A stretch of DNA of 64,000 nucleotides from Pedobacter faecalis (GTDB lineage Bacteria; Bacteroidota; Bacteroidia; Sphingobacteriales; Sphingobacteriaceae), in the NCBI RefSeq assembly GCF_030182585.1, contig NZ_JARXOW010000001.1, forward strand, positions 930,001-994,000. The letters run 5' to 3'. Both the position numbers and the translations under genes were made by a program. Shown here piece after piece: positions 2,545-52,116 of the stretch (positions are counted from its first letter, which is position 1; each line of letters begins with the position of its first letter). The notes under the pieces were generated by a model, which was not told the DNA's origin, did not search any database, and was given only the letters and a program-made list of their open reading frames with translations.

Positions 2545-3290
2545 TGAGAGCAGTTTTAATAGACGACGAGAAATCTAACCTGGAAAACCTGCGGACACTG
2601 CTCAGCAAGCACTGTCCGCAGCTAACCATCATGGCAACCGCGCAAAATGTAGCCGACGCTGTGTCGGCAATAGAACAAAGCAAGCCCGACCTCGTGTTTC
2701 TCGATATCCAGATGGGTGATCAGACCGGCTTTGACGTGCTGAAACTGCTTCCAGCACGTAACTTTGAAGTGATTTTTGTGACGGCGTACGACCAGTACGG
2801 CATACAAGCCGTAAAGTTTGCCGCTCTGGATTACCTCTTGAAACCTGTAGACATAGATGAACTGCTCAATGCCGTAAATATGGCCGAGCGCAAACTCGCA
2901 GCACACTTTCCAACCTCCCAACTCGATTTCCTGCTCCAGCAACTTAAGAAGCCAGAACCATCGGTAAGCAAAATAGCCCTGCCCATGCAAAACGAGATCC
3001 GGTATATAAACCTGTCTGAAATTATCCGCTGCGAAGCCGACAATACCTATACCCATTTCTTCCTTGCCGGAAATGAAAAAATACTCGTCTCAAAACCCCT
3101 CAAAGAATACGCGGACCTGCTGCGCCCCAACGGCTTCTTACGCACACACCAAAGCCATCTCGTAAACCCAAAATACGTAAAAAGCTGGCTAAAGGAAGAC
3201 GGCGGTGTATTGCTGCTAATCTCTGGCGAAAAAATACCAGTGTCTAAACCAAATAAAGATGCCGTAAAGCAAGCTTTGCAGGGGTTGTGA
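2541..3290 (+). CDS. LytTR-family response regulator
   Basis: Partner of the kinase just upstream. An N-terminal receiver domain carries the acidic pair LIDDE (residues 8-9) and the phospho-acceptor in FLDIQMG (Asp about 55). A Lys in YLLKPVD follows, and a C-terminal LytTR DNA-binding domain lies at about 148-248 (IRCEADNTYTHFF, RTHQSHLVNPKYV). I place the start at the ATG of the ATGA overlap. An upstream TTG at 2532 is possible but would put the reading inside the kinase. It likely activates a small set of promoters, which cannot be named from this window. Confidence 0.93.
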   Translation: MMRAVLIDDEKSNLENLRTLLSKHCPQLTIMATAQNVADAVSAIEQSKPDLVFLDIQMGDQTGFDVLKLLPARNFEVIFVTAYDQYGIQAVKFAALDYLLKPVDIDELLNAVNMAERKLAAHFPTSQLDFLLQQLKKPEPSVSKIALPMQNEIRYINLSEIIRCEADNTYTHFFLAGNEKILVSKPLKEYADLLRPNGFLRTHQSHLVNPKYVKSWLKEDGGVLLLISGEKIPVSKPNKDAVKQALQGL

Positions 3291-3301
3291 CTTTGTATTC
3301 T

Positions 3302-3664
3302 CTATCCTACAGATAGCATAAATAGCGACCCTAAACCCACAATCAAGTAAATCCAAAATAGGAAAAAATAGTCTTTGAAGCCACTTTCATCAAAATGGTT
3401 TACACTCCAATTAATCTTTTTATTGAAGAGTATCTCGACCCCGATAAAATATATGGACAGAAAGAATATCCAAGCCTTAGCTGCAGTAAAATTATCTGCA
3501 ATCGATAACACGATTGAACAGTTACATATAAACAATGTGGCAAGACCTGTACCTTTTGTGTAGTCCTCCGAAAAGTTTGTATTCCTTGACCAGTACTTTT
3601 TTGCAAAATACCCGGCAAACACGTTTAAGGAAATCATAAAATTGATCAAGTGTCGTAAAATCAT
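3302..3664 (-). CDS. Small membrane protein, unknown function
   Basis: A 120-residue protein with three or four hydrophobic segments (about 8-19, 42-55, 65-78, 100-117). I do not recognise a family. It is the intact member of a duplicated pair: the copy at 11766-12128 carries compensating indels that scramble its middle. It is the first gene of the minus-strand island, 15 bp downstream of the neighbour at 3679, and converges with the LytTR gene 12 bp away. An inner-membrane location is inferred from hydrophobicity only. Confidence 0.65.
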   Translation of the reverse strand: MILRHLINFMISLNVFAGYFAKKYWSRNTNFSEDYTKGTGLATLFICNCSIVLSIADNFTAAKAWIFFLSIYFIGVEILFNKKINWSVNHFDESGFKDYFFLFWIYLIVGLGSLFMLSVG

Positions 3665-3774
3665 GATTTTATCACGCCTCAGGCATTATGTTTTTTATTG
3701 ATCATTTTCAAAGCATATTTATATTTCGCTTCGATACTACCCTCCAAATGACCACCATATTCTCTCATATGTCT
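3303..3774. repeat. 472-bp island duplication, copy A
   Basis: Copy A of a roughly 95 percent identical segment found again at 11767-12238 in the same orientation. It spans the whole 120-residue membrane gene and the last about 32 codons of the gene at 3679. Both genes are intact in this copy, so it is the likely parent. Right boundary: identity stops after the shared catatgtct at 3774. Confidence 0.9.
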
Positions 3775-4254
3775 AATAAATCCCACATAGTCCTTGCTCT
3801 GCCATAGCTCATCTAACCTACCTCTTATTCCCTGGTCTTGCTCTTTTTCTAAGATTTCAAGGCGACGTTGCTGAACCACTTGTAACGCCTTATGAACGAT
3901 CTGTGTATTTGATAAAACGTATTCCAGTTTGCTTCTTAGAAATATATCGATTTCCTCCAACCATCTCACCAGAAAGGGAGTGTTACAAATTTGAGTAGCC
4001 GATAGTTTTTGCTCACTGTTAAACAACTCGTTCAGCTCACTATATCCATAACATATGCTGTAGCTACCAAAACAAAGAACCATATCAACTTCATATGACG
4101 AATTGTGATCGTAAGAGAGAATAACTGTTATCTCGTCATTCTTAAATGTGATGAAACCCATAAAATCATCAACGACTTCAAATCCAAACTGACGAAGTGT
4201 AGGGCTTAGATATTCCTTAACAAGCTTGTTAAAATTCATTAAGCATCGATTCAA
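3679..4254 (-). CDS. Unknown cytosolic protein, DUF4304-like size and pattern
   Basis: A protein of 186-191 residues. The start may be the internal Met at 4239 (MNFNKLVKEYL), which is the more natural start, or the one at 4254. It has no signal peptide or membrane segment. The N-terminal half reads like a small alpha/beta domain (LRQFGFEVVDDF, FGSYSICYGYSEL), and the C-terminal half is charged and helical with QQRRLEILEKEQDQ. The general pattern (FGF near residue 20, short beta strands, helical tail) recurs in the 15609 gene. Such proteins are common in Bacteroidota immunity clusters, but function here is inference only. The last 100 bp are duplicated at 12125-12238. Confidence 0.7.
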   Translation of the reverse strand: MNRCLMNFNKLVKEYLSPTLRQFGFEVVDDFMGFITFKNDEITVILSYDHNSSYEVDMVLCFGSYSICYGYSELNELFNSEQKLSATQICNTPFLVRWLEEIDIFLRSKLEYVLSNTQIVHKALQVVQQRRLEILEKEQDQGIRGRLDELWQSKDYVGFIRHMREYGGHLEGSIEAKYKYALKMINKKHNA

Positions 4255-4280
4255 GATTAATTATGGCAAGTGCAATATAA

Positions 4281-4715
4281 TTATTTGAAGCGATGCTTCG
4301 ATCCCCTACTTACATTATACCGCGTCATATAATATTTAGCGACCCCCCAAGGCAACAGACAGAACCCTAGAAAAATAACCGATATTAAAACCCGCGTTTT
4401 GTCACGTTTAAGACCGTCCGGTATATAGAAATAATCATATTCCGCATGGTAAATCAACTTGATTCTAGAACCGACTGGATATTTTGTACATTCCTGGTTA
4501 GCCAGCCGTATTAAATACCTTTTGCCCTTTACAATAATATCCAATGAAGAATGCCCCTTATACCGCGCACATGTTTGCTTTGTTATGGTATGAAATGAAG
4601 CAACACCAGCTCGTTCTAATTCCCTATTTTGAAAATAGAAATATACGAAGTATAAAGTGGATAATAACGAGAGTAAAATCATCATCCATTGGTATTTTGA
4701 AAAATATCTTCTCAT
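4281..4715 (-). CDS. Two-helix membrane protein, DUF3592-like arrangement
   Basis: A 144-residue protein with one N-terminal membrane helix (about 11-28), a soluble extracytoplasmic middle of about 75 residues with two Cys (QTCARY, QECTKY), and a second helix at about 108-128. The arrangement of helix, small beta domain and helix resembles DUF3592-type membrane proteins, but I cannot confirm the family. It stands alone between the unknown gene at 3679 and a decayed gene at 4797. Confidence 0.6.
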   Translation of the reverse strand: MRRYFSKYQWMMILLSLLSTLYFVYFYFQNRELERAGVASFHTITKQTCARYKGHSSLDIIVKGKRYLIRLANQECTKYPVGSRIKLIYHAEYDYFYIPDGLKRDKTRVLISVIFLGFCLLPWGVAKYYMTRYNVSRGSKHRFK

Positions 4716-4796
4716 TCAAGGATTATTTGTTTTCAGTTCAGGAAACATCTACTGATATGCTTATTTTGTAAACACTCCAATTGATTCCATCAGCTA

Positions 4797-5125
4797 TCAC
4801 CTCGTACGGGGATCATAAGTAGTGTCATCGCTTATTTTCTTCAGAGCCTTAGACGCTTCCAAACGTATTAAAGAATCAGATGTATTCTCTCTCATAGTCT
4901 TAGTTCCTCATGCTGTAGTTTAACCAAGGCCGTACTCCCTACAATTCTGTTTTCATCTAAAAAGGTTATTATCGCTTTCCTGGTATCTTGAGTTAAAAAA
5001 GGGTATGACCGTATCTTTGAGAAGATTCTCCAGTTCAACTTTTAGTCGATCGTAATCATTTAACGTCCAGGCTTTATTTATAACTAAATCATTTACCCCT
5101 AGTAAGTAAGAAGGGACGGTGGCCT
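4797..5125 (-). pseudogene. Decayed gene, at least two frameshifts
   Basis: Minus-strand translation in successive frames gives protein-like stretches: VPSYLLGVNDLVINKAWTLN followed by DYDRLKVELENLLKDTVIPF, then, after a shift, KAIITFLDENRIVGSTALVK, then SLIRLEASKALKKISDDTTY before a stop. No single frame is open and no start is visible. The middle and end are helical and charged. I do not recognise the family, though the last piece has a HEAT-like look. It is one of several broken genes in the island. Confidence 0.6.
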
Positions 5126-5154
5126 CTCAAAATCTAACACATTTTTTTCTGGGT

Positions 5155-5352
5155 TTAAAAAAGCAGTTTTATAATCTCATTTGCCAAAATCGCTACTCCA
5201 AATAACAACATTATTATCGATGCAGCAAATACCCTTAGCTTTGTAGCAAAAAGCATATCGTCCGAACTGTACTTATAGAATTTATGCCGAACGGCAGTCC
5301 ACGAGCCAAGCAGAACGCTGATTAGGCCGATGAAAAAATAACTAAGGTTCAT
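5155..5352 (-). CDS. 65-residue membrane protein
   Basis: A small protein with two predicted membrane helices (about 4-17 and 43-60) joined by a basic, Tyr-rich linker (RHKFYKYSSDD). The clean start, the balanced hydrophobic pattern and the absence of a competing frame support it as real. Function unknown. It lies downstream (minus strand) of the secreted protein at 5480 and upstream of the decayed gene at 4797. Confidence 0.55.
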   Translation of the reverse strand: MNLSYFFIGLISVLLGSWTAVRHKFYKYSSDDMLFATKLRVFAASIIMLLFGVAILANEIIKLLF

Positions 5353-5369
5353 TGGTGGATATGATGAAT

Positions 5370-5474
5370 CTATCTTTCAGCTAAGGTATGTTTTGACACC
5401 AAAATCCCTTTTTCTTCCATGAACTCTATTGAAATTTTACCATTTCTGTTAATATCTATCACATAGTCTATCAT
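5370..5474 (-). other. 34-codon ORF, perhaps a gene tail
   Basis: A short open frame starting MIDYVIDINRNGKISIEFME and ending at a TAG. It is coding-like in composition and sits right after the stop of the 5480 gene, but it is too short to assign. It could be a remnant like the other 3' tails in this island, or chance. Confidence 0.25.
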
Positions 5475-5479
5475 AAAAG

Positions 5480-6427
5480 TTATTTCGTCCTCTTAAATGT
5501 TCTGATAATATTCTTTATATCTGTCTTAGCCTGCTCGCTATCGCTCATATATGTCCCTACAAATAAATAGTAGCCGCCGTCATCAGCAAACACAATGACC
5601 TGATACATCTCTTCTTCCAAATGATTACTGTTCTTTGCGAAAAGCTCATACCCCTTTAGGCTATCCAATTCAATCTCGTTTATTCCTTTGTCCGTAATTA
5701 AAGAGTAGCTGTCAGGATACTTTTTAAGTCGTGATACACAAAATAATTTTTTGTTTTCAATGTCTGTTTTCGCAAATGATTTGTCAGTTATTAAGGTAGC
5801 TTTGTCGATACTTTCCGTGGGTGTTTTTAAATCTCGATTAAAGATCATTCCATTTTCAACGACAGCTTTAAACTTTAATGAGCCAGCACTTTCATTCAAT
5901 GAATAACCCAATGCTTCTCTAGGATTGCCCGTCCACTGTGAGTCTACAAAGGTCGATAAAATACTTTGCTTAATGTCCTGGCCTATTTTTAATGAGTCGC
6001 TCAGGTAGATCCCGTTTATGAGCGTAGTTGACTTTTCATTGCCATATATTAGAATATGCTTTGCAAATATTCTGTTGTTGGCAGATTGGTTTACTTCTAT
6101 AAGTAACGCATCGAAGCTGGCTACTTTGATGTCCTTCCTGCTTTTCAGAATCATACCCTTTGTTTTGAGCATATCTGCATTGAACCCTTTCTTAACCTCT
6201 GAGTATGGCCCTGGAATCTCGAGTGTCATTATCATTGAGGCTGGATCACCTGGATTTTGAAACCCTTTGAAATTCCCTGAATGTTGAAATGATTTAGGTG
6301 GAATCATGAAAATATTTGTTCCCTGGATCTGAACATGGCTGTTAGATCTTTCTTTTGGTAAATCTTGTCCAAAACAAAGTGTTGAAGAAGACACCAGCAG
6401 AGTTGCGAGGATTTTTATTCTTATCAT
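5480..6427 (-). CDS. Secreted/periplasmic protein of unknown function
   Basis: A 315-residue protein with a signal peptide (MIRIKILATLLVSSSTLCFG, cleavage about residue 20) and no further membrane helix. The mature part has two similar-looking halves: each ends with strand-rich sequence and an IKNII or IKQSIL helix (about residues 150-157 and 305-312), so an internal duplication is possible. I do not recognise a family. It is the largest gene in the first part of the island and appears to be monocistronic. Confidence 0.7.
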   Translation of the reverse strand: MIRIKILATLLVSSSTLCFGQDLPKERSNSHVQIQGTNIFMIPPKSFQHSGNFKGFQNPGDPASMIMTLEIPGPYSEVKKGFNADMLKTKGMILKSRKDIKVASFDALLIEVNQSANNRIFAKHILIYGNEKSTTLINGIYLSDSLKIGQDIKQSILSTFVDSQWTGNPREALGYSLNESAGSLKFKAVVENGMIFNRDLKTPTESIDKATLITDKSFAKTDIENKKLFCVSRLKKYPDSYSLITDKGINEIELDSLKGYELFAKNSNHLEEEMYQVIVFADDGGYYLFVGTYMSDSEQAKTDIKNIIRTFKRTK

Positions 6428-6647
6428 CAGCGTTAAATATTATACAAATATAAGGGTTATATCGTTGTCTCTTTCAAATCCGTAAATGTCTTGTTGAGTC
6501 GCCTAAATTCTATAGACACATGCAGAATTCCTAGTGCTCTAACTTATCCTTCCATACCAATTCATCAGCAGCGCTATTTGTGCTACGTTAAGCCATTGAC
6601 CCTTGATAATATACATAATCCTTCGCTAAGAGTGAGACTTGGAATAA

Positions 6648-7061
6648 CTAAACTAAACCATTTTCAACAATATAGCTTTTATCCCATAGTCTATATAATT
6701 TCAGCGCTTCATCTAATACTAATCCAATATTTTGCTCAAAAAAAAGCAGGCTTTCATTTTCCACGACAAACCGCTTTACGAAATATCTGCACTGCAGATC
6801 GTCATAACTCTTGGTAACATAGAAAGAGAACACATCTCCAGAGGGATTATCTACACAAATAATCCCAATATTCCCCATAAAAAACCCGTCATCAAAAATA
6901 AAGTCGACAATTAAAGCATCGTTTGTTTTTACTGGCTGAGTTAACTTCCAACCATCAGAATTAAGCTTATTAATCATCAACTTTTCAATAGAACTTAACC
7001 TCTCTTCTATTTTCAAAAATTCTTTATCATCAATATGGTTGTATAGATTATAGTTCAGCAT
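6648..7061 (-). CDS. Unknown cytosolic protein, immunity-like
   Basis: A 137-residue acidic protein without signal peptide. An N-terminal helix (FLKIEERLSSIEKLMINKL) is followed by a strand-rich middle (ALIVDFIFDDGFFMGNIGII) and a helical end. Size, acidity and setting fit an immunity-type protein, but no family is recognised. The region just upstream holds a broken gene tail (7092-7312), and a spacer of about 220 bp separates it from the secreted protein at 5480. Confidence 0.6.
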   Translation of the reverse strand: MLNYNLYNHIDDKEFLKIEERLSSIEKLMINKLNSDGWKLTQPVKTNDALIVDFIFDDGFFMGNIGIICVDNPSGDVFSFYVTKSYDDLQCRYFVKRFVVENESLLFFEQNIGLVLDEALKLYRLWDKSYIVENGLV

Positions 7062-7091
7062 ATCACAAAGTTCAAGTAAATCAATATTAAT

Positions 7092-7312
7092 TCACGTCGT
7101 CAATTCCAATCTCTGCGATGACGGGCGGCTTATTACATCAATTATATTATCAGACTTACATATTTCATAATAGACTAATTGAAAATCGTCAAACATGCCG
7201 CCGCCTTCTTCTTTAATCCATTTCAAAAATCTAGTATTTGTTGATTTACAAAAATTAACCAACAACATCGGGAAATATACTTCTGCAAATTTATTCTGTC
7301 CAACAGTTTCAC
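7092..7312 (-). pseudogene. 3' end of a lost gene
   Basis: An open minus-strand frame, with a stop but no start, encodes a protein-like end: FAEVYFPMLLVNFCKSTNTR, FLKWIKEEGGGMFDDFQLVY and YEICKSDNIIDVISRPSSQR. The frame is blocked upstream by a TAA. It reads as the last about 70 residues of a larger protein whose 5' part is gone. Family not recognised. Confidence 0.55.
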
Positions 7313-7378
7313 ATTATTTACCATAAAGTATTCACCCATTAATTTATTTCACATTGTCCATTCTGTTCCTGAAGGTAA

Positions 7379-7440
7379 TCAAATAAAACATTCAATAACA
7401 GACCTATAACTACTCGCATTCAACCTTTCGTATAAGCATA
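7379..7440 (-). pseudogene. Orphan tail copy of the 8444 gene
   Basis: The minus strand reads MLIRKVE and, after a 2-base deletion, ASSYRSVIECFI plus stop. This matches the last 20 residues of the gene at 8444-8854 (PMLIRKVEDASSYSVVVECF). It is therefore a diverged duplicate of only the 3' end of that gene, about 1 kb away. No more of the copy is present. Confidence 0.7.
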
Positions 7441-7478
7441 TTTGTGAAATGGGAAATAATTTTTTGATAACTAAATAT

Positions 7479-7976
7479 TTACAATCTCTTTAAAGAATTG
7501 AGCGCTTTTTCAAATTCCGCCTTTCTCTTCTCACTTACACCGACATACCCAATACTTAGAACCCCTAACCGCACATCTTTCCAATAGTGCCCATTTTTGG
7601 TCTTACCTTCCAAAATTATTGTCTTCAGCCTGTATTCCCGGCCCAATTCTTCCGCTAGTTTAGCTTTTAAGTCTAGTGCCTCAAATCGCTCGTTTGCCAT
7701 GCTATCGCCTAGGGACAAAATATTGTCGTAGTTTAGCATACTCTGACCGAAATCGGATATATACAACTTTGACGAATCTTTATAGATGTATTGTTTTTCC
7801 AGTTCCCCATGCCCTCCTTTTAAAGTAATCAGTTTATGTTGCTTAGGTACATTCATGGAATATTTGATTAATGTCTCATTCAATCCGTTAGTTCGATATC
7901 GCACAATAATATCTTCGCGGTTAATTGCGCAGGAAAGGATGAAAGAAATTAATGTTATAAAAACTGCTCTTTTCAT
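7479..7976 (-). CDS. Probable lipoprotein, unknown function
   Basis: A 165-residue protein with a lipoprotein-type signal (MKRAVFITLISFILSC, lipidated Cys about 16). The mature part is soluble, rich in charged residues, and ends in a helix (EKRKAEFEKALNSLKRL). The middle reads like a small alpha/beta domain. No family recognised. It likely sits on the periplasmic face of a membrane. Confidence 0.65.
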   Translation of the reverse strand: MKRAVFITLISFILSCAINREDIIVRYRTNGLNETLIKYSMNVPKQHKLITLKGGHGELEKQYIYKDSSKLYISDFGQSMLNYDNILSLGDSMANERFEALDLKAKLAEELGREYRLKTIILEGKTKNGHYWKDVRLGVLSIGYVGVSEKRKAEFEKALNSLKRL

Positions 7977-8055
7977 ATTTCACTGGTTCTCTACGTTTAA
8001 CTGCAGGCTCGTCTAATGGATTTCGTACTAATTGCTCATCGTTGCCTTTGTATCT

Positions 8056-8443
8056 CTAGATGCATTTACTCCGATTGTCATTGTCAGCAAAATTTACAGT
8101 ATCTGGAGATACCCAATCCGCAACCACAGAAACACCATTTCTGTATATTGATCTAATGACTTCTTTTGGCAATCTATTTTTCAGGTCCTTTATCATCCAG
8201 TAAGCACTCCAAGCGTGCCATTTGAAACTGCTAGTCTTGATTTATCGGCATAATCTGTCCAGAATTGCTCAGCTTTATAGTCTTCCACGCCTTTATCGAC
8301 AAAAAAAAAAACTGATGATGGGAAGTATCAAAATCAAGCTTGGTCACACTATTTCTTTTTTTGTAATAATTACATGTTTGAAACACCATTATAACTAGGA
8401 AAGTACTTATAAGCTTAATCATATCAGTAAGTATCTTCCACAT
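8056..8443 (-). pseudogene. Lipoprotein gene broken by two frameshifts
   Basis: Frame 1 starts MWKILTDMIKLISTFLVIMV and gives a lipoprotein-like signal (MVFQTC) and about 45 residues to the run of 11 A at 8301-8311. After a shift there, frame 2 reads VDKGVEDYKAEQFWTDYADK and onward to about 8222. After a second shift, frame 3 reads WHAWSAYWMIKDLKNRLPKE and VIRSIYRNGVSVVADWVSPD to a TAG at 8056. Joined, the gene would encode about 128 residues. The homopolymer suggests slippage, or a sequencing error at the first site. Confidence 0.65.
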
Positions 8444-8854
8444 CTACATAAAACATTCAACAACAACACTATAGCTACTCGCATCTTCAACCTTTCTTAT
8501 CAGCATAGGAATGTCTTTTTTCGAATACCAGAACCCTTTACTCACGCCGCTTTTCAAGCGCTCAATCACATATTCCTTGAACTTGGGTAGTGCCAACTGA
8601 TTCACATCCTCGAATTCATATTCTACTCTTGCCGTTCTACCCTTCATAAGCGGATGATACCCGAAAAAATACGCCCATCCAACTCTCCTTACACCTCGTA
8701 CCTGAAAAAATTTACCCTGAGCATCTAAAATATACGAATCCTTAAAGATGCCAAAAAGTGAAGTACTGGCCAGTTCAGGACCCTTTGCTTTCGTGTATAT
8801 ATTCTTATCGGCCTTAAAAAGGTGCAGTATAGGGTAGTTTATAGTTTGCAACAT
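8444..8854 (-). CDS. Unknown 136-residue cytosolic protein
   Basis: A soluble protein with a strand-rich centre (FFQVRGVRRVGWAYFFGYHP, RTARVEYEFED) and a helical end. No signal peptide. It abuts the broken lipoprotein gene (stop at 8444, next start 8443) and is preceded by the pentapeptide gene 11 bp upstream, suggesting one transcript. A diverged copy of its last 20 codons lies at 7379-7440. No family recognised; immunity-type is a guess from context. Confidence 0.65.
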   Translation of the reverse strand: MLQTINYPILHLFKADKNIYTKAKGPELASTSLFGIFKDSYILDAQGKFFQVRGVRRVGWAYFFGYHPLMKGRTARVEYEFEDVNQLALPKFKEYVIERLKSGVSKGFWYSKKDIPMLIRKVEDASSYSVVVECFM

Positions 8855-8865
8855 GAAAGAAATAA

Positions 8866-9891
8866 TTAGAAGGACTCCGCCGAAGATACGACCTCCTTCA
8901 AAAAAGTAAAGAACCTGGTTTGAAAGGCTTCCGTTAAATACTTGTTCCGAACAGTTGATATTAGATCCATTTTCATTCCTTGCTTCATTTCACTGTAAAA
9001 AAGGTTGTCGATTAAAAACAGTCCTTGCCGCCTGTCCTCACCTTCCCATTCAGATTCAATATGTGCCCGCATATTTGGAAATACTGCGTGTATATCTTTC
9101 ACCAAAATAAATTCACCAGTAGCTGGAAAACGACAACTGCTAATATCAATCTCGTCAAGAAAAAGGAGATCGTCAAGTTCTGCTTCAGTAAAGTCAACAT
9201 TTTCCATCCGATTACGATAATCCCTTGGGTCAATTCTATTGAACAACCAAAGGATAGAAGTTTGAGCGTTCGTCGAGAATCCCCTGAATATCGGAGACTC
9301 AACCTTCCCGATAAACTTAACGTTTCGCATTCTGGACCCGTCAAAGTCCGTTGCGTAAAACTTGCAGTTATCAAATATGCAGTGCTCTATCAGAGGAAAT
9401 GAGAAAAATGTCTCCTTTAAATTACAATTTTTAAAATTACAATTTATGTACGACCCTGCATTATCAGCAATATTCGAGTTTAAGAATGCATATGACAAGT
9501 TGCAGGCATTAAAATCACACGAGCTGAAATCGCAGTTGTAAATCCTTATTCCTTTTGCTACAGTAGAATCAAAAAAACAATTATCAAATTTGCAACCCTG
9601 AAAGTATGCATAACTGATATTAGCGTAAGAAAAATCAATACCGACTAAACTCGCTCGCTTCACATCCAGACTTCCATAGTTTATTTCAAAAGAGTGCTCT
9701 TTTGTGCCAACTACCTGACTCTTTACAACTTCGGAAAGCGGGGCTCCCCTAAGATCAATTCTTCCATCCACAAAAGAAATTCCCGGTAAATCTGCTATAT
9801 TCTTCTTTCTTTTGAATGATTTCCTTACTGCTAACAGAAGACGTTGCCCCTCCGCTGTTTGCCAACGCTGCTTCAATTGCGATTTTGTCAT
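8866..9891 (-). CDS. Pentapeptide-repeat-type protein
   Basis: A 341-residue protein. After a basic N terminus (about 1-50), residues about 85-200 form short pentapeptide-like units typical of a quadrilateral beta-helix: LVGIDFSYANISYAYFQGCK, CDFSSCDFNACNLSYAFLNS and NCNFKNCNLKETFF. The C-terminal about 130 residues are not repetitive. Pentapeptide proteins can mimic nucleic acid or act as scaffolds, and some occur as immunity or effector proteins. Nothing here fixes the role. It is probably cotranscribed with 8444. Confidence 0.75.
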   Translation of the reverse strand: MTKSQLKQRWQTAEGQRLLLAVRKSFKRKKNIADLPGISFVDGRIDLRGAPLSEVVKSQVVGTKEHSFEINYGSLDVKRASLVGIDFSYANISYAYFQGCKFDNCFFDSTVAKGIRIYNCDFSSCDFNACNLSYAFLNSNIADNAGSYINCNFKNCNLKETFFSFPLIEHCIFDNCKFYATDFDGSRMRNVKFIGKVESPIFRGFSTNAQTSILWLFNRIDPRDYRNRMENVDFTEAELDDLLFLDEIDISSCRFPATGEFILVKDIHAVFPNMRAHIESEWEGEDRRQGLFLIDNLFYSEMKQGMKMDLISTVRNKYLTEAFQTRFFTFLKEVVSSAESF

Positions 9892-9937
9892 AACTTAACA
9901 CGCCACTAATCTGTTTTGCTTGATAGTGAGATAAGCA

Positions 9938-10249
9938 TTATCTATCTACCCTGTCCAGCTTTTTATATTTATAGGCCATAGTCCTTCCGCTCGCATTAAA
10001 GATACTATCCTGCTGTCGGTCCTTTTTGTATTCAGTAAGAATGATGATATCTTCACGCATAAATACGGCATCAGTATTTCTTACAACCTTGGGATCACTA
10101 TTACTGAAGGTCGCCGGGCCATCTGGATGCACTCTCGCCCTGTACAACTCCCTCTTCCAGGTGTAGAGTGTCACATCATCATTACTGTACTCTTTTTTAC
10201 AAGCAGATACTGCAAGTAGCAGCGGGATCAAGAAAATAAACCTTATCAT
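9938..10249 (-). CDS. Small lipoprotein
   Basis: A 103-residue protein with a clear lipobox (IPLLLAVSACKKEYS, Cys about 17). The short soluble domain has many basic and acidic residues. No family recognised. It lies upstream of the pentapeptide gene with a 46-bp gap, so it could be the first gene of that small operon. Confidence 0.65.
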   Translation of the reverse strand: MIRFIFLIPLLLAVSACKKEYSNDDVTLYTWKRELYRARVHPDGPATFSNSDPKVVRNTDAVFMREDIIILTEYKKDRQQDSIFNASGRTMAYKYKKLDRVDR

Positions 10250-10530
10250 ATGTCTTGAGAACTAATTATATTTGATTAAACTTCCAAAGCAAATTACACA
10301 TAATAGGTTGATATTCTCCTTCCTAATTCAATATTTAACACCTATTAACATTTTGGATTTTGTTGGTATAGCTTGCCCGGTTTTATTCAGAAGTTAACAA
10401 ACTCTGAAGATTTCTCAATTCCTGTCGATTTCACGTCCAAATAGTTAAGACAGCTATAACAGGATAAGACAATCCGTTAAGAATGGTAATACCTTTACAT
10501 CAAATCCCTGGGGAAGCAGTTCGGTTAAGT
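10250..10530. other. Gene-free A+T-rich spacer
   Basis: No convincing coding frame or RNA gene is visible. It lies upstream of the lipoprotein at 9938 and probably holds its promoter. It ends at the SDR gene remnant at 10531. Confidence 0.5.
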
Positions 10531-10613
10531 TTACCGCCCCATCCAGCCCGCATCAGCCGTTATAACGGGACCTTGCATATAATCTGATTGGCTGACGCCT
10601 GGACTCGCCCGGG
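10531..10613 (-). pseudogene. 3' remnant of a kduD-like SDR gene
   Basis: The minus strand reads SDYMQGPVITADAGWMGR plus TAA. This matches the end of the KduD-like protein at 16768 (SDYMHGTVMTVDGGWMGR). Nucleotide identity is about three quarters over 80 bp, so it is a diverged paralogue tail rather than a fresh copy. Nothing of the rest of that gene is present. It lies in the same orientation as the intact gene. Confidence 0.75.
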
Positions 10614-10616
10614 AAT

Positions 10617-10646
10617 AAAAAAGCCTGGCTCATTGAAGAACCAGGC
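10617..10646 (-). terminator. Rho-independent terminator
   Basis: A stem GCCTGG/CCAGGC (10623-10628 with 10641-10646), extended by an inner TC/GA pair, is followed on the minus strand by six T. It lies 55 bp downstream of the stop of the DUF1493 gene at 10701 and most likely ends that transcript. Confidence 0.8.
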
Positions 10647-10700
10647 GTTTGTATTTTCAGACTTTAGCGGCGGATTCTAAACCCGCACGGAAAAGAACGG

Positions 10701-11030
10701 CTAATCTGCTAAGATGCTTTCGTCTAATTTTCCCAAAGCGATAGCTTTTTCTAAGTGCCCTAATGTTATCACCTTCTTTTTAGTTTCCTTTCCAGTGAAA
10801 ATTAATTTATACAAAGAAAAGCTTCCCTCTGGAGCAAAATACTCTGATAATTCTAGGTCTTCAGTATCTATATCAAACCTTTTTCCGAACTCTTCAAAAA
10901 ATTCTAATGCATCATCACCAGTAATTTTTAAGTCTCTTTCCAATTGAGTATCTCTTGTAAGCTCTATTTTATACCTACCTCTCATTTCAATTATCAGGGA
11001 TTTTAGCTGGTTAAATATCTCATTATCCAT
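10701..11030 (-). CDS. DUF1493-family acyl-carrier-like protein
   Basis: A 109-residue protein with the DUF1493 pattern LTRDTQLERDLKITGDDALE followed by FFEEFGKRFDID, an acyl-carrier-protein-like four-helix fold. At the place where a true ACP has the DSL serine, this protein has GDDAL, so no phosphopantetheine attachment is expected. DUF1493 proteins are frequent in immunity-like arrays; their biochemical role is not established. A terminator follows. It is a single gene with about 185 bp upstream to the DMP19-like gene. Confidence 0.75.
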   Translation of the reverse strand: MDNEIFNQLKSLIIEMRGRYKIELTRDTQLERDLKITGDDALEFFEEFGKRFDIDTEDLELSEYFAPEGSFSLYKLIFTGKETKKKVITLGHLEKAIALGKLDESILAD

Positions 11031-11215
11031 TTGATCTTATAAATTGTGAACCAATATTTCGGTTTCGCTAACAAAGCAATTGTGATTACCCTCTAATTCT
11101 ATATTAAATACCTTTTCTTGTTTAGACGTCAATGTTTAGCAATTCTGTTTTTGTACCTGCAGTTTTTAACATACAGTTCTCCTGCAAGCTTTGCAGGGTT
11201 CTACTCCGGGGCAAA

Positions 11216-11677
11216 TCAACTATCTAAATAGCTGGTCAGAAGATGTTCTAGATCTTCATCTAATTCGTCGTATGCATCGTCTAATTTTTCTAATGCGTCG
11301 AACAAATCCTCATCAAAGTCAACTATTCCCGCGAGTGCTCTATAAAATACCTTTTCTCTAAATTCCTCTGTACTGAGCTGACCAGTATTTACTAATCCTA
11401 ATGCGTCCTCTAAAATTTGCGCTGATTTAAAAGCTCCGATCAGTTTTAAGTGATTTACAGTTATGTAAGCAAACTGACCATTAGAGTTGAAGAAGAATTG
11501 ATGAAGCCCCCCGTTAATTACCTGCTTGTGAAAAACAACAACGGTATATACAACCTGAAGATGGGTTGGCAAATTGGTTATGTGCCGGAACCATGCGTCT
11601 TTATCCCCAAGAATGGACTCGTTTAACCCTTGCACAGCCTCCGTGTAACAGCTGTTAATTGCATCTTTATATTTCAT
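11216..11677 (-). CDS. DMP19/DUF4375-family protein
   Basis: A 153-residue all-helical protein with the family signature INGGLHQFFFNSNGQFA (about 57-73) and a very acidic C-terminal helix (DEDLFDALEKLDDAYDELDE). DMP19 of Neisseria is a DNA-mimic protein, and DUF4375 relatives are widespread in immunity-type arrays. DNA mimicry is known for that family member only; here it is an inference helped by the acidic tail. Full length for the family. A start at 11677 gives the expected N terminus. Confidence 0.8.
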   Translation of the reverse strand: MKYKDAINSCYTEAVQGLNESILGDKDAWFRHITNLPTHLQVVYTVVVFHKQVINGGLHQFFFNSNGQFAYITVNHLKLIGAFKSAQILEDALGLVNTGQLSTEEFREKVFYRALAGIVDFDEDLFDALEKLDDAYDELDEDLEHLLTSYLDS

Positions 11678-11765
11678 CCATCTAACTTCGAAAAATTTTT
11701 ATCAAAATGTTCTATTCCGTCTTTCAAGGTCAAATTATTTCAACTTGACTTGATGGTTAAGCTAT

Positions 11766-12128
11766 TTATCCTGCGGATAACATAAACAGCGACCCTAAAC
11801 CGACAATCAGGTAAATCCAAAACAGGAAAAAATAGTCTTTGAAGCCACTCTCGTCAAAATGGTTTACACTCCAATTAATCTTTTTTATTGAAGAGTATCT
11901 AGACCCCAATAAAATATATGGACATGAAGAATATCCAAGCCTTAGCTGCAGTAAAATTATCTGCAATCGATAACACGATTGAACAGTTACATATAAATAT
12001 GTGATAAGACCTGTACCCTTTGTATAGTCCTCCGAAAAGTTTGTGTTGCTTGACCAGTACTTTTTTGCAAAATACCCGGCAAACACGTTTAAGGAAATCA
12101 TAAAATTGATCAAGTTTCGTAAAATCAT
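11766..12128 (-). pseudogene. Frame-scrambled copy of the 3302 membrane gene
   Basis: This copy keeps the first about 42 and last about 32 residues of the 3302 protein, but an indel near 11997 and a second, opposite indel in the T run near 11881 put the middle into a wrong frame (LYVTVQSCYRLQIILLQLRL instead of a membrane helix). The length stays 120 residues only because the indels cancel. The hydrophobic core is lost, so the product is very unlikely to work. Confidence 0.8.
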
Positions 12129-12238
12129 GATTTTATCACGCCCTCAGGCATTATGTTTTTATCGATCATTTTCAAAGCATATTTATATTTCGCTTCGATA
12201 CTACCCTCCAAATGACCACCATATTCGCTCATATGTCT
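11767..12238. repeat. 472-bp island duplication, copy B
   Basis: The degraded copy of 3303-3774, same orientation and same total length. It ends abruptly at 12238, inside what would be the coding region of the 3679-type gene. From there the sequence belongs to the 12229 gene. Confidence 0.9.
12125..12238 (-). pseudogene. 3' tail of a 3679-type gene
   Basis: Carries only the last about 32 codons of the 191-residue gene at 3679 (EYGGHLEGSIEAKYKYALKM), then runs through a 1-base deletion into a different ending. It arose with the 472-bp duplication. No start is present. Confidence 0.8.
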
Positions 12239-12501
12239 CTGCGTTCACATGCTAACTTTTTAAGTTCTAGTACGGTCTGCTCATTATCACATCCTTGTTC
12301 AACCCGGTAGGCAACTAAATCCCGATAGGCTTCCGAAACAAGGCCTTTTTCTGCAAGTACTAAGTCCTGTATTAAGTTATCTATAAAGAACCACTCAGAA
12401 TCTTTAATAATAGATAACTCCTTCTTAGTCGCACAACGCGCAAAACTATCGACATCCCCATCGTAAGATTTATATATTTTTAGGTGCTTTAGTGTAATCA
12501 T
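12229..12501 (-). CDS. 90-residue protein, end reset by duplication junction
   Basis: The sequence is helical and charged (FFIDNLIQDLVLAEKGLVSE, YRDLVAYRVEQGCDN). The last codons and the TGA stop come from the boundary of duplication copy B, so the natural end may have been lost. No family recognised. It may be a shortened immunity-type protein or simply a remnant. Confidence 0.5.
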   Translation of the reverse strand: MITLKHLKIYKSYDGDVDSFARCATKKELSIIKDSEWFFIDNLIQDLVLAEKGLVSEAYRDLVAYRVEQGCDNEQTVLELKKLACERRDI

Positions 12502-12530
12502 CTTGCAAGGCTTTTATCTCCTTCGATCAG

Positions 12531-12584
12531 CTAAACCCCAGCCTGTCTTAATAGTTCAAGACATTCTGCCTCTAACATGTGAAA
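12531..12584 (-). pseudogene. Very short orphan gene tail
   Basis: The minus strand reads FHMLEAECLELLRQAGV plus TAG, a helical protein-like end without any upstream frame. Comparable to the other orphan 3' ends nearby, but short enough to be chance. Confidence 0.3.
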
Positions 12585-12616
12585 TAAAAAATATAAGCGT
12601 ATCATTTACATAAATA

Positions 12617-13318
12617 TTACCCTTGTCGGCTGGACAGGAAGGACTCATATAGCCCTTGAATATCAGTCTTACCCGACAGTAACGCTGCTTTAAAGCTATC
12701 AACATCAGCAAAAACCAGTTCCACAGTATAAGGTGAATGTATAAGCAGGTAAACAGCCCCATTCTCGTCAACGCCCAGATAGTTGCCATCTCCTAAATTC
12801 TTAAGAACGTAGAAGACACCCTCTGGAATCTCTATTTTAAATGTACTCTGTATATCTAAAATTTCTTCTAAACCTGGATCTACCATGCCAAGTATCTTCT
12901 GTAAATTCAGCTTGTCCTCATCACCGGATTTGTCTTCGCTAATTAAGTTTCCGTCTACAATATGTGGATCCAAGTCTTCTATAGGCGCCATCATTTTATA
13001 GCCCGAAAACATTCCCTCCACTAGATATAACTCTACGAATTCGAAGGCTTTACTTCGTTGATTCCAAACGCCTAAATTTTTTATGATGAGTAGGGACGGC
13101 ATTGATTTATCTCTGAAGTCTCGAGCAATATTTGCATTAAGCAAAAAAGTGTAACTTCCTTTGTAACCGAGTATATTCTTTTTTACGCCAAGGATAAACT
13201 CCATATTAATCTGAGGCAGTAAAAACCTGTATCTTTCAGGCAATCTATAAACAAGCGCTACAAAAAAATCGACATGCTTAGTCGTAAAGGAAGGCTTCTT
13301 CTTAAATAATCCAAACAT
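12617..13318 (-). CDS. Unknown 233-residue protein, possible SUKH-like end
   Basis: A soluble protein with no signal peptide. It begins MFGLFKKKPSF; the N-terminal about 130 residues are strand-rich, and an acidic linker (ISEDKSGDEDKL) follows at about 130. The C-terminal part (GDGNYLGVDENGAVYLLIHS) has the look of a SMI1/KNR4 (SUKH) domain end, a fold used by many immunity proteins. That resemblance is by eye only. A short gene tail precedes it by 7 bp. Confidence 0.6.
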   Translation of the reverse strand: MFGLFKKKPSFTTKHVDFFVALVYRLPERYRFLLPQINMEFILGVKKNILGYKGSYTFLLNANIARDFRDKSMPSLLIIKNLGVWNQRSKAFEFVELYLVEGMFSGYKMMAPIEDLDPHIVDGNLISEDKSGDEDKLNLQKILGMVDPGLEEILDIQSTFKIEIPEGVFYVLKNLGDGNYLGVDENGAVYLLIHSPYTVELVFADVDSFKAALLSGKTDIQGLYESFLSSRQG

Positions 13319-13324
13319 CTTACT

Positions 13325-13417
13325 TTATATACTTTTTGTATAAAACCACAAATCTTCAACAGAGAAATCAGTTAAATTTATCTCGCTACCAAATAAAGCT
13401 CCAAGACCTTCACTCAT
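13325..13417 (-). pseudogene. Orphan gene tail of 30 codons
   Basis: The minus strand reads MSEGLGALFGSEINLTDFSV and EDLWFYTKSI, then TAA. The frame is closed just upstream. It is coding-like and very close to the 12617 gene, but too short for a full protein. Best read as the end of a lost gene. Confidence 0.4.
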
Positions 13418-13633
13418 GGCTTCAATTCTTTATTATTCTAAGACGTTAGCTAAATTTAATCTGTAAGCAAGCTAGAGATTAAATCGGATATCACAAAGAA
13501 GATTACTTGCATTTGCATTCCATCAGTCTTATCGAATGTCTATACCCGCAAATTCTACAGAAAATACTGGTCATCAATAGCGTGTTAAAAAGATTTGACT
13601 GGTTACCTTTCTCGTATTCCTGTATTAAACGAT

Positions 13634-13900
13634 ATGAGAAAGTTAGTCAATAAAATTTTCTTCGCGTTCAAAATGTATCCATTTTCTACCGGTGCATTCT
13701 CGATTACCCTTTTCTTCTGGTCCATGGTTGTTACTGGGTATATCAATATCAAGCTAAACCCAGCTCCAAACGGCTACCCTGACTATCTGGGTGAGGGGGT
13801 TATGATGGGCGCGTTTCTCGCATTGTCATTCGCAGCGTTCATAATGGCCGTAACTTTGCTCAACATCACCTTTCAAAAAAAGAAAGATTTCTATATCTGA
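13634..13900 (+). CDS. Small membrane protein
   Basis: With the start at the ATG 13634 (MRKLVNKIFFAFKMYPF) it has 88 residues and two membrane helices (about 19-38 and 58-77) separated by PAPNGYPDYLGEG. It is the only intact plus-strand gene in the island. No family recognised. An upstream start at 13595 is possible but adds an unlikely leader. Confidence 0.5.
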   Translation: MRKLVNKIFFAFKMYPFSTGAFSITLFFWSMVVTGYINIKLNPAPNGYPDYLGEGVMMGAFLALSFAAFIMAVTLLNITFQKKKDFYI

Positions 13901-14413
13901 CTTTTATAGCAGCAAACGGGACTGTAAGTTTAATATGTTGTCTGCTATTGATGTCTTAGCCGTAATGAAGCTTCAAGTACCTCATCAGAATTCTTCAGGA
14001 GAATTTGCTCTCTATCTCTCTCTGCTTTCTAAAGTACTCATAGATATGTTCACAAGCATTGCTTTCAGAAAAAAACGTCTTCTCTTTGCCATTTTTTTCC
14101 ATATCCTTTTTGATAGAGAAAAACTCATTTTGGGGACGCCGTGTACATAAAAAATTCTGAGCCCGCATAAGTAACACCCGTAACATGAACACCCTTCGAA
14201 GCTACCTGAGTAAATGCTGGCTCACACTTCGTTCACACCTTGTTCACAATTAAGCCACAATAGGGTACCTTTTTGTGAAGGAAATGTGTCTGATGTGTGT
14301 TTAATGTGAGCGAATGATCCCAGCAAGGCCACCACTTGATAAATACCAGTAAATTATATATTCTTTGAATCTTGTCTCGTCCTGCTATAGCTTGTCATTA
14401 ATTCCTAACGATA
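13901..14413. other. 513-bp spacer with no supported gene
   Basis: Short frames exist on both strands around 13935-14192, but neither has a recognisable motif and they overlap each other. A short direct repeat of GTTCACA occurs at 14231 and 14242. The right part probably belongs to the upstream end of the IS3-like remnant that starts at 14414. Confidence 0.4.
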
Positions 14414-14587
14414 ATGAAAGCGAAATCAGTAAAGAAAGCAAAAGTCACCCTTTCAAACAGGAAGCCATGGGGCAGACTTGATGAGCGCGCCAAGGAGAAA
14501 ATTCTCAGCGAGATAGACAGTGGGCTATTGAGCCGAAGAGTTGCTGCTCGAAAATATGGTTTGCCTAATAGCACAATAGGTAAGTGA
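14414..14587 (+). pseudogene. IS3-family OrfA transposase fragment
   Basis: Encodes a 57-residue start with a helix-turn-helix of transposase type: KPWGRLDERAKEKILSEIDS, then LLSRRVAARKYGLPNSTIGK, then stop. This resembles the N-terminal HTH of IS3/IS150-like OrfA. The frame is cut right after the HTH, where an inverted repeat and then IS256 sequence follow. Confidence 0.6.
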
Positions 14588-14615
14588 CAGGATAAACATA
14601 ATTTGGCTATCCTGT
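14587..14615. repeat. Inverted repeat at an IS junction
   Basis: Perfect 8-bp arms ACAGGATA and TATCCTGT around a 13-bp loop. It starts at the stop of the IS3-like fragment and precedes the IS256 remnant. It may be a transposon end, a terminator or chance. Confidence 0.4.
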
Positions 14616-14669
14616 TGCATCCACAAACTTTTAATGAGCCTGTAGCTATTAGCGACTCTCAAGAGGCAA

Positions 14670-14879
14670 TGATGTTCCAGCTCACCGGTCATCATCGATT
14701 CCAGAAAATGCTTCATCATGGGCGCCAGTACGCCGTCGGTGCCGGTCTCTTTTTGCCGGGCATATAAGCCTGCTATAGCTTCTTTCTTGAAGCTCTCGAA
14801 GTTAAAGTCTTCTTGTGTTGCCATTATTTATGTCGAAAGTTTAAAGTTACACTATTGACACAGTTCAGGAAACACCCTC
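14670..14879 (-). mobile_element. IS256-family remnant (transposase 5' end and one IR)
   Basis: From the right end (ACACCCTC at 14879) inward it is nearly the same as the intact element at 52209-53549: the terminal sequence with ACACAGTTC, then ATG at 14824 and the first about 49 codons (MATQEDFNFESFKKEAIAGL through MMKHFLESMMTGELEHH). Identity stops at about 14670, after which the frame runs into unrelated sequence for about 50 codons. The rest of the element is missing. Confidence 0.85.
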
Positions 14880-14914
14880 ATAGAGGCGACAGTAACTAGT
14901 TCCTTAGGTTCCCT

Positions 14915-15421
14915 CTACAGATTTATTTGAACTTTGACTAAGAAATCCATTAAATCCCGGATCATAACTTCCCTTTCATCATCCTTGTTACGATCTAAAA
15001 AAAAAGATAATTTATCAATCGCCTTTTTATAGTGGGCAGCCTTAAAAGGACCCTTCATCTCTTTGATGACCAGCAAAGCGTTGGAAGCAGTATAGTAATT
15101 ATCTGATATCGTTAAGTCTATAAAAAACAAAAGATGATTGGAACAATCAAACGCTTCACAGCATAGCACCAAGTACCCACGATGATTTTTAGAAAGCGGA
15201 TTTTTTATTGCATTTATAAAAGCCCTAAGAGATGTTTTATGCTTAATACAATAAAGTATTTTAGCTACTGAATCTCGTACTTCATGGCTCTTCGTAGTTT
15301 GCAAAATCTGATTTAATTCCTTAACCAATGAAACTTGATTCTTATCAATTAACATCTTCAAATTGCGAAAAGCAACTTCCTCGATGCTCATCTTGAGTCT
15401 TTCTTCCTTACATAATTTCAT
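14915..15421 (-). CDS. HEAT-like helical protein
   Basis: A 168-residue protein made of paired helices (MLIDKNQVSLVKELNQILQ, VRDSVAKILYCIKHKTSLRA, YYTASNALLVIKEMKGPFKA). The pattern is that of HEAT or armadillo-like repeats, a frequent fold among immunity-type and scaffold proteins. A start at the inner Met 15391 (MSIEEVAF) is also plausible. It is flanked by the IS256 remnant downstream. Confidence 0.6.
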   Translation of the reverse strand: MKLCKEERLKMSIEEVAFRNLKMLIDKNQVSLVKELNQILQTTKSHEVRDSVAKILYCIKHKTSLRAFINAIKNPLSKNHRGYLVLCCEAFDCSNHLLFFIDLTISDNYYTASNALLVIKEMKGPFKAAHYKKAIDKLSFFLDRNKDDEREVMIRDLMDFLVKVQINL

Positions 15422-15490
15422 AATAGTAACAGGTAATGCTGTTCAGAGGTGGCCCCCGCGGTAGTGCTGTGCAGTTTGGGTTTTACTATT

Positions 15491-15611
15491 TTACTGATCT
15501 GAGAAATTCAAAAAATCGTCTTCGTTCTTTAACGCTTCCTGTAAAAATCTCTTTGCTTCAGAAAGTACAATGGAACTCTCTTTTAAGTTTCTGCTGAAAT
15601 TCCTATCTCTA
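15491..15611 (-). pseudogene. Frameshifted 3' extension of the 15609 gene
   Basis: Removing one base from the A4 run at 15611-15614 (T4 on the coding strand) turns the stop after NKHPF into RDRNFSRNLKESSIVLSEAK and then RFLQEALKNEDDFLNFSDQ before a TAA. The extension is coding-like and would bring the 15609 protein to about 183 residues, close to its 186-191-residue look-alike at 3679. Confidence 0.6.
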
Positions 15612-16043
15612 AAAGGGGTGCTTGTTTCTCCAATACTTTTCAAATTCGGCCATTTTTAATTCATAATCATTACCACAAAAAAAATCATCTATCAAATTGT
15701 AATTCTCGTAAAGCACCCCTGAGATATGATTCAATTGTTTTTTGTAACATTCTTTAATATCTATTTCGTCGCGGAAATATTCTGATTTTATATCTTGTGC
15801 ATCACTTTGTCTCAAATACTCCAACAAATTGAAAAGATTTATTTCTTTATCAGGCTTGTTCAACTTATAAAGTGTTACATAAAACTCACGAAAGTACTTT
15901 TCAATCTTAATCACATAATTACCTGAACTATATTCAATCATATATGATTCCCCTTCGTTGAGTTCTGTTTTCATCTGAAAACCGAATGCTTCAATAAGTC
16001 TTTTAGAAAGCTCATAGATGTATTGTATAAAACTCTGTTCCAT
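15609..16043 (-). CDS. Unknown protein, probably shortened by a frameshift
   Basis: 144 residues as read. The N terminus (IQYIYELSKRLIEAFGFQMK) and alternating strands (YSSGNYVIKIEKYFREFYVT) have the same plan as the 3679 protein: a helix, FGF, then paired strands with charged residues. The end seems lost to a 1-base slip (see 15491). No signal peptide. Family not recognised; immunity-like by context. Confidence 0.6.
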   Translation of the reverse strand: MEQSFIQYIYELSKRLIEAFGFQMKTELNEGESYMIEYSSGNYVIKIEKYFREFYVTLYKLNKPDKEINLFNLLEYLRQSDAQDIKSEYFRDEIDIKECYKKQLNHISGVLYENYNLIDDFFCGNDYELKMAEFEKYWRNKHPF

Positions 16044-16140
16044 GTAAATAGTATCGACCCTCAGGCACCCTACTCTGTTAGCTTAATATATAATTCTTGT
16101 ATTGTCATAACTAAAAATGACGCAATAATTCCCCATCTAG

Positions 16141-16752
16141 TTAATAAATTTGTAGGAACCCGTGATTGAAATTGAGTGCCCTTATTCCCACATACGGCAA
16201 AGACACCGTCAATAACTCAACGTACCATAATATTTCATTTTTAATATTACGCCCATTGCCTTGTTCGTATCTGTTAACATGAACCCATCTATTAATCTCC
16301 GAAATGCTCAATAAATCTTTAAAGGCAAATTTGCCCTTTGCGGTATAGATTATGATTTCAATACTCCAATCAGATGGACCAAATAAAAACTCTACTCTTG
16401 TATTATTTTGCTTTGTATACTCGATGTAATAAGCTAACCCCTTCTCGCAATAAGAATGTCTTTTGAAAAATAAAGTGAGGAGCACAATTTCAATTTCATT
16501 TAATGCATCCAGGAAATCATCTGTTAAATTATTTATTTTGGCCATAGTCCTCTGTCTTGCATTAAGTTTATTTCTGCCCATATAATGTTGTCCAACCGTT
16601 CTTGTAGGCCACGATACATCATTAGATAATATCCAATTCACTACATTGAAATTGTGTTTAATTAGTTCAGGTGCAATTTCAACATTTTGATTTGGAAGAG
16701 TTAGGTCTTGCTTGTTAGATTTAACGCGCACATCAACGCCCTCGCTTGGCAA
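16141..16752 (-). CDS. Unknown cytosolic protein next to kduD
   Basis: Up to 203 residues. An internal Met at 16545 (MAKINNLTDDFLDALNEIEI) would give 134 residues and is perhaps the true start, because the upstream part reads less like a folded domain. The middle (FGPSDWSIEIIIYTAKGKFA) again follows a strand-rich plan like its island neighbours. It lies only 15 bp after the kduD stop, so it may be read through from the uronate operon. Family not recognised. Confidence 0.55.
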   Translation of the reverse strand: MPSEGVDVRVKSNKQDLTLPNQNVEIAPELIKHNFNVVNWILSNDVSWPTRTVGQHYMGRNKLNARQRTMAKINNLTDDFLDALNEIEIVLLTLFFKRHSYCEKGLAYYIEYTKQNNTRVEFLFGPSDWSIEIIIYTAKGKFAFKDLLSISEINRWVHVNRYEQGNGRNIKNEILWYVELLTVSLPYVGIRALNFNHGFLQIY

Positions 16753-31620: not shown

Positions 31621-31638
31621 GTATTGTCTATTTGTTAT

Positions 31639-38873: not shown

Positions 38874-38943
38874 AGTGATCATTTTTTTACAAAACTGCAG
38901 AAAACAGTTTCGGGAGCTTTTACCATATGTTAAAAAAACGCCA

Positions 38944-52036: not shown

Positions 52037-52110
52037 GTGGTTTTAGCTCAGTTGGTTAGAGCGCCTGATTGTGGTTCAGGAGGTCGTGGGTTCGAGCCCC
52101 ATATTCCACC
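52037..52110 (+). tRNA. tRNA-His (anticodon GTG)
   Basis: A complete cloverleaf: D arm GCTC/GAGC, anticodon stem CCTGA/TCAGG with loop TTGTGGT (anticodon GTG) and T arm GTGGG/CCCAT with loop TTCGAGC. An extra G precedes position 1 at 52036 (the G-1 of tRNA-His) and discriminator C73 is at 52110. In the acceptor stem, positions 5-68 and 6-67 read U opposite U, which is unusual. Strong promoter and terminator flank it. Confidence 0.95.
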
Positions 52111-52116
52111 CTTTAT

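Follow-up and report, generated by a model that had tools for sequence, protein, structure and literature searches.

A strain-variable island of candidate orphan immunity genes against Rhs toxins beside kduD in Pedobacter faecalis

The DNA analyzed is a stretch of 64,000 nt from Pedobacter faecalis (hereafter the window, in which all positions are given), corresponding to positions 930001–994000 of contig NZ_JARXOW010000001.1 in a 3.63 Mb assembly of six contigs (GCF_030182585.1). Between a LytTR response regulator gene (end at 3290) and kduD (16768–17538) lies an island of 13,477 bases that carries candidate immunity genes against Rhs polymorphic toxins, and its GC content is 36.6%, versus 47.4% across the rest of the window. 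The comparison genome is that of P. deserti SYSU D00382 (locus L001, genome G022), which is assigned to the same species; these were the only two genomes available for it. Synteny between the two at the DNA level ends at 3290/3291 and 16767/16768, which are the edges of the island. An earlier note, made from the sequence alone, had outlined an island of small minus-strand genes at 3302–16752, and this outline holds: there are 17 apparently intact minus-strand open reading frames (ORFs) of 65–341 amino acids (aa), together with ten broken pieces, where the note had counted at least eight. The intact genes and the two flanks are as follows (dS, synonymous divergence from P. deserti).

2532..3290, plus strand: LytTR response regulator, left flank; 92.6% to P. 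deserti, dS 0.28
3302..3664, minus strand: small membrane-type protein of 120 aa, immunity-type
3679..4254, minus strand: X191, 191 aa; its 3' tail recurs at 12156–12238
4281..4715, minus strand: predicted membrane-type immunity protein, 144 aa
5155..5352, minus strand: predicted membrane-type immunity protein, 65 aa
5480..6427, minus strand: exported protein, 315 aa
6648..7061, minus strand: immunity-type protein, 137 aa
7479..7976, minus strand: predicted lipoprotein-like immunity protein, 165 aa
8444..8854, minus strand: protein of 136 aa, weakly immunity-type; common to P. deserti, dS 0.115
8866..9891, minus strand: pentapeptide-repeat protein, 341 aa (Pfam 2.3e-13)
9938..10249, minus strand: lipoprotein-like protein, 103 aa
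10701..11030, minus strand: DUF1493 protein
11216..11677, minus strand: predicted DMP19/DUF4375 immunity protein
12229..12501, minus strand: protein of 90 aa, weakly immunity-type
12617..13318, minus strand: SUKH-like protein, 233 aa
14915..15421, minus strand: protein of 168 aa, HEAT-like below cut-off only
15609..16043, minus strand: predicted immunity protein, 144 aa
16141..16752, minus strand: first gene behind kduD, strain-specific, 148–203 aa depending on the start codon; not in P. deserti
16768..17538, minus strand: kduD, right flank and proposed anchor, an SDR-type metabolic gene

Three island genes have Pfam matches above cut-off: DMP19 (8e-22), DUF1493 (1e-10) and pentapeptide repeats (2e-13). 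These families had been named in the earlier note, but the SUKH and HEAT folds that it also named stay below cut-off, with an E value of 0.0053 for SMI1_KNR4 in the 12617 protein (17.8 vs 25.4 bits; two of its seven relatives match SMI1_KNR4 at all) and 0.053 for HEAT_2 in the 14915 protein. Searches of 145 genomes of the genus and 301 of the family gave no relative of the 14915 protein beyond P. deserti and none of the 16141 protein, the position of which is occupied by a different gene in P. deserti; X191 had no relative besides itself among 5.8 billion proteins.

The evidence on function comes from the places where homologues of the island genes stand in other genomes. The 145 genus genomes were searched with long queries built by concatenating 13 window proteins and three from P. 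deserti (the relatives of 5480 and 9938 came from a DNA search), and the surroundings of the homologues were scanned for an Rhs core upstream, on the same strand and within 2.5 kb. Left out of the counts were the second row of G026:C2, the tandem copy in G081, the fragments at L124 and L128, and all rows of G000 and G022. An Rhs core was present at 20/47 homologue places versus 0/79 control loci (Fisher p 1.1e-10, for places that are not fully independent and control loci that come largely from other genomes). The control loci surround kduD in Pedobacter and other Bacteroidota, and none of the 79 has any Rhs piece, also when 98 core queries were used. Counts were full or high for 7479 (3/3), 7092 (3/3), PD1376 (2/2), 15609 (1/1), 5155 (5/7) and 3302 (3/5), intermediate for 6648 (1/2) and PD11465 (2/7), and zero for 12229 (0/5, with one at 3.9 kb), 12617 (0/4), 4281 (0/5), 5480 (0/1) and 9938 (0/2). 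The family-wide search of 301 genomes, in which 11 regions were examined and G351 was not included, added two relatives of 15609 that, like the first, immediately follow this one Rhs toxin end (now 3/3), and six places for 4281. In one of these six the gene immediately follows a full-length Rhs gene (L284), and in another an Rhs piece precedes it by 2.1 kb (L282), so that Rhs is upstream within 2.5 kb at 2/11 of the viewed 4281 places.

Relatives of several of these genes are immediate neighbours of Rhs: they overlap an Rhs protein or one of its detached toxin ends, or lie no more than 10 bp away. This is the case for 15609 (3/3) and 7479 (3/3, with one shared toxin end), for the 7092-type gene (2/3), 6648 (1/2, behind a full-length Rhs at L218), 5155 (2/7, behind toxin ends at L223 and L243) and 4281 (1/11 viewed), for two genes found only in P. 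deserti, and for the closest DMP19 relative of 11216 (58%), which starts 2 bp behind a full-length Rhs gene (L310); at the other seven DMP19 places, of more remote similarity, the nearest 1.5 kb or so is free of Rhs. The toxin ends beside the relatives of 15609 (among them those at L127 and L275) are 80–89% alike across three genomes, and those beside the relatives of 7479 (L123 among them), which carry a domain of the Peptidase_M91 family, 65–86%. Because the adjoining ends are alike across genomes, the 15609- and 7479-type genes and these ends are predicted to be true toxin-immunity pairs.

Direct pairing with Rhs thus covers six intact genes (4281, 5155, 6648, 7479, 11216 and 15609) and the 7092 tail, and five more genes have weaker links. 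Elsewhere a single gene stands between a detached Rhs toxin end and the 3302-type gene behind it, and DUF1493 (10701) has an Rhs piece within about 1.5 kb in 4/11 relatives. One of the three viewed relatives of 8444 follows a short ORF resembling a toxin end (L276), which matches no family and has no Rhs core nearby; one of five relatives of 12229 lies between two Rhs genes, the nearer of them 3.9 kb off; and a distant relative of 12617 sits inside an Rhs array (L283). A small same-strand array with 5155- and 3302-type genes was also observed in genome G041 (L224:6042–8381), where no Rhs piece occurs in the 12 kb examined, and it is possibly a second toxin-free array at another site.

If the locus were a hot spot under relaxed selection that gathers any mobile gene, immunity genes would be there by chance. 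An insertion sequence (IS) and palindromic repeats are present, and two genes lack a toxin context: the sole relative of 5480 (63%, L119) has no Rhs beside it, and both relatives of 9938 lie among unrelated genes without Rhs, so that the 9938 protein is probably not an immunity protein. Links to Rhs arrays, direct or weaker, for 11/17 genes and for the two P. deserti-only genes make such a mixed assemblage quite unlikely.

The toxins themselves were not found. The island and its P. deserti counterpart gave no match to 98 Rhs cores and 74 toxin ends, in a search whose positive control matched, which bears out the absence of a toxin reported in the earlier note. The P. faecalis genome as a whole has no match to a full Rhs query that matches 90/145 genus genomes, and none to DUF6443 (eight in G121); toxin ends without an Rhs core were not searched genome-wide. 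Orphan Rhs toxin-end/immunity modules of related genomes (L121, L122, L129, L218, L222 and L246) share immunity families with the island, but there Rhs pieces precede each immunity gene, and here there are none. It could be argued that kduD was formerly adjoined by an Rhs toxin together with its array, and that deletion of the toxin left behind immunity genes that are perhaps functionless; relatives do carry such arrays behind Rhs genes, and much of the island is broken. This origin is nevertheless considered unlikely, since the 26 kb of the two islands hold neither an Rhs core nor a toxin end, although the related arrays examined usually contain detached Rhs pieces, and six genes shared by both islands are intact, with dN/dS (the ratio of non-synonymous to synonymous divergence) of 0.12–0.50, from just 2 to 10 nucleotide differences each.

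In P. deserti both flanks are kept at 93–95% identity and 12.55 kb lie between them. Common to the two islands are the blocks 16054–10500 (97%), 10452–9930 (95%) and 8865–8445 (94%), and copies of 3303–3774, 12239–12501 and 13533–13963 occur in P. deserti in differing number and position, but the gene adjoining kduD and nearly all of 3775–8444 differ. The first four ORFs behind kduD were viewed in 22 further relatives and showed no comparable block. The block is a strain-variable island, because the P. deserti mosaic differs from it and because it was not seen behind kduD in these 22 relatives, an outcome in favour of the earlier note, which had proposed this synteny comparison. Against the other 79 kduD loci, matches of the island DNA are limited to a kduD tail and the repeat at 14222 (both described below). 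Median dS was 0.028 for the six genes of the central block that are intact and shared versus 0.116 for 26 flanking genes (p 0.001, for groups chosen after the data had been seen), and 0.27 for the five flanking genes nearest the island, the flanks overall ranging from 0 to 0.65. Since dS differs among shared block genes, flanks and nearest flanks, the locus appears to be a patchwork of mixed ancestries.

Broken pieces and repeats lie between the intact genes.

7092..7268, minus strand: orphan 3' tail of an immunity gene of 127–141 aa, C-terminal match only; 3/3 full-length relatives are behind Rhs
7383..7440, minus strand: orphan 3' tail of an 8444-type gene, 85–86% to 8448–8507
8196..8341, minus strand: internal remnant of a 231-aa protein (tblastn)
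10476..10559, plus strand: 3' tail of a gene that is longer in P. deserti (28 codons, 71%, 5e-6)
10531..10613, minus strand: orphan kduD 3' tail, a putative scar; 83% to the kduD end over 70 nt, at the same place in P. deserti
11766..12128, minus strand: frame-altered second copy of the 3302 gene, a 94% DNA repeat with the middle altered
12156..12238, minus strand: orphan 3' tail of X191, abutting the 12229 gene; 98% repeat of 3692–3774
13419..13577, minus strand: remnant of an 86-aa Cys-rich gene, start and downstream part retained, middle lost; intact in P. deserti
13533..13963, plus strand: degraded small membrane-type gene, with a second copy in P. deserti
14222..14310, no strand assigned: palindromic dispersed repeat of about 90 nt, with 80–85% copies in other Pedobacter genomes, mostly intergenic
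14398..14824, minus strand: IS256-like transposase remnant, of which 14525–14824 has a 92% copy at 53340–53549

The duplicated copy and the transposon remnants that the earlier note had picked out are both present, the former as 3303–3774 versus 11767–12238 (94%) and the latter as the IS256-like remnant. At the junction 12238/12239 the X191 tail meets the end of the 12229 gene, and no microhomology is visible there, as judged against a second copy. An IS256-like transposase ORF of 411 aa also occurs elsewhere in the window (52259–53494), beside tRNA-His (52037–52111), and its start region is 92% like the island remnant. The repeat at 14222–14310 looks like a small non-autonomous mobile or repetitive extragenic palindromic (REP)-type element, and behind the DUF1493 gene there is an imperfect palindrome of 42 nt (10614–10659) with 83–89% matches in genomes G026 and G125.

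The last 70–86 bases of kduD recur 6.2 kb inside both islands, in a copy that is closest in sequence to kduD of P. faecalis and P. deserti. This proximity and the 83% likeness to kduD suggest that the tail is an old scar. A copy of the flanking gene's 3' end within the island, as seen here, is what remains when an element integrates at the end of a gene, and the 3' end of kduD might then be the attachment site of a site-specific recombinase acting on an integrative element or on a cassette array resembling an integron or the recombinase-associated acquired interbacterial defence (rAID) systems. This is very unlikely: of the three PF00589 matches in the genome both of those on the same contig are more than 400 kb off (serine recombinases were not searched), the kduD tail is single, decayed and 83% alike, with an exact core no longer than a few bases, and no intergenic word is shared beyond chance (attC folds were not searched). 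Across 19 intergenic stretches of the window island, the sharing of 8- to 12-mers was no higher than in shuffles, and repeats were few. The rAID systems of Bacteroidales (Azhieh 2025 preprint, PMC12247911) resemble the island in their co-oriented short genes, orphan immunity and phylum. Identity with rAID as defined in that preprint was rejected, with no PF00589 within 400 kb and no shared intergenic motif.

A closer parallel is found in the orphan immunity arrays of the type VI secretion system (T6SS) clusters of Vibrio cholerae (Kirchberger 2017, PMC5361080), where co-oriented immunity genes against foreign toxins have 3' ends of the upstream gene between them. In the model given there, a shared gene upstream serves as the anchor for incoming DNA, whose other end undergoes illegitimate joining, so that the old 3' end moves further down the array. 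The recurring 3' end of the anchor gene is present here as the single kduD tail (10531), but in V. cholerae the anchor is an effector gene, whereas here it is the metabolic kduD and there is no toxin. The Salmonella Typhi immunity islet (Barretto and Fowler 2020, PMC7400221) is likewise chromosomal, and most of its genes are orphan immunity genes against toxins missing from the genome; it is directed at T6SS and contact-dependent inhibition (CDI) effectors, in contrast to the Sphingobacteriaceae Rhs toxins and the remnants of growth considered here. By analogy, the island would work in the same way as these two systems.

Taken from the comparisons above, the block is very probably an orphan-immunity islet against Rhs polymorphic toxins, a mosaic drawn from Rhs loci of other Sphingobacteriaceae, with the toxins absent. 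Because the relatives sit behind antibacterial toxin genes while no toxin was found beside the island genes, the island is most likely a shield assembled against the weapons of neighbours, in which each immunity protein would bind the toxin end delivered by a competitor and so protect the cell without that weapon. The islet probably grew as DNA was taken up repeatedly into the interval from kduD to the LytTR gene. On one or more occasions, homology to kduD would have anchored the arriving DNA, and an illegitimate joint close to the end of the resident kduD would have left a kduD tail inside the islet; later cuts, duplications, point decay and an IS would account for the other remnants. The earlier proposal of an acquired array of defence genes without its toxin is upheld as far as several families stand in the immunity position behind Rhs toxins, but six of the 17 genes (3679, 5480, 8866, 9938, 14915 and 16141) are without such evidence. 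Its proposal of recurrent recombination agrees with the mosaic, the duplicated pieces and the kduD tail, but gene shuffling by exchange specifically at 3' ends is not demonstrated.

Several observations weigh against the islet interpretation. At 27/47 places there is no Rhs within 2.5 kb upstream, no context supports 3679, 8866, 14915 or 16141, and the contexts of 5480 and 9938 are contrary; 12617 has none in the genus (0/4), and the DMP19 link comes from 1/8 places. All four minus-strand pieces cut at one side only are 3' ends (kduD, two immunity-type genes and X191), but with so few cases this bias is not significant (4/4, two-sided p 0.125). The part of the island close to LytTR varies no less than the part close to kduD, so that entry at kduD is not the whole explanation, and the dS contrast carries the reservation made above about its groups. 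The P. deserti genome has one Rhs-like match outside the island (1e-52), without DUF6443. Expression is unsupported, because a promoter scan found few signals: a Bacteroidota-type promoter precedes 1/17 genes, and its -7 part 2/17, the latter no more than in shuffled windows.

Strain differences were also observed beyond the island. The gene upstream of kduD (17569–18735) is 75% to P. deserti over just 64% of its length and looks locally replaced, its other neighbours being 94–97% like P. deserti. A second strain-variable patch consists of 30934–35121, 36884–37660 and 38136–39513, for which the collinear stretches compared in P. deserti offer no equivalent.

A bolder scenario, possible but doubtful, is that of a disarmed lineage with a recombinase-free 'collect and keep' island: DNA from the Rhs loci of attackers would be captured via kduD homology and all its toxin parts trimmed, new immunity genes would be added at the kduD side, and past captures would be partly legible from the order of genes and tails. 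No paper on such an islet in these bacteria was found, in a literature search to which most subscription journals were out of reach. Gut Bacteroidales, Vibrio and Salmonella are known to carry immunity islets, and the present one is in a soil relative. It supplies candidate toxin partners for several unnamed small families, and the kduD scar makes the proposed joining mechanism testable. The genome seems to defend itself without attacking with Rhs.

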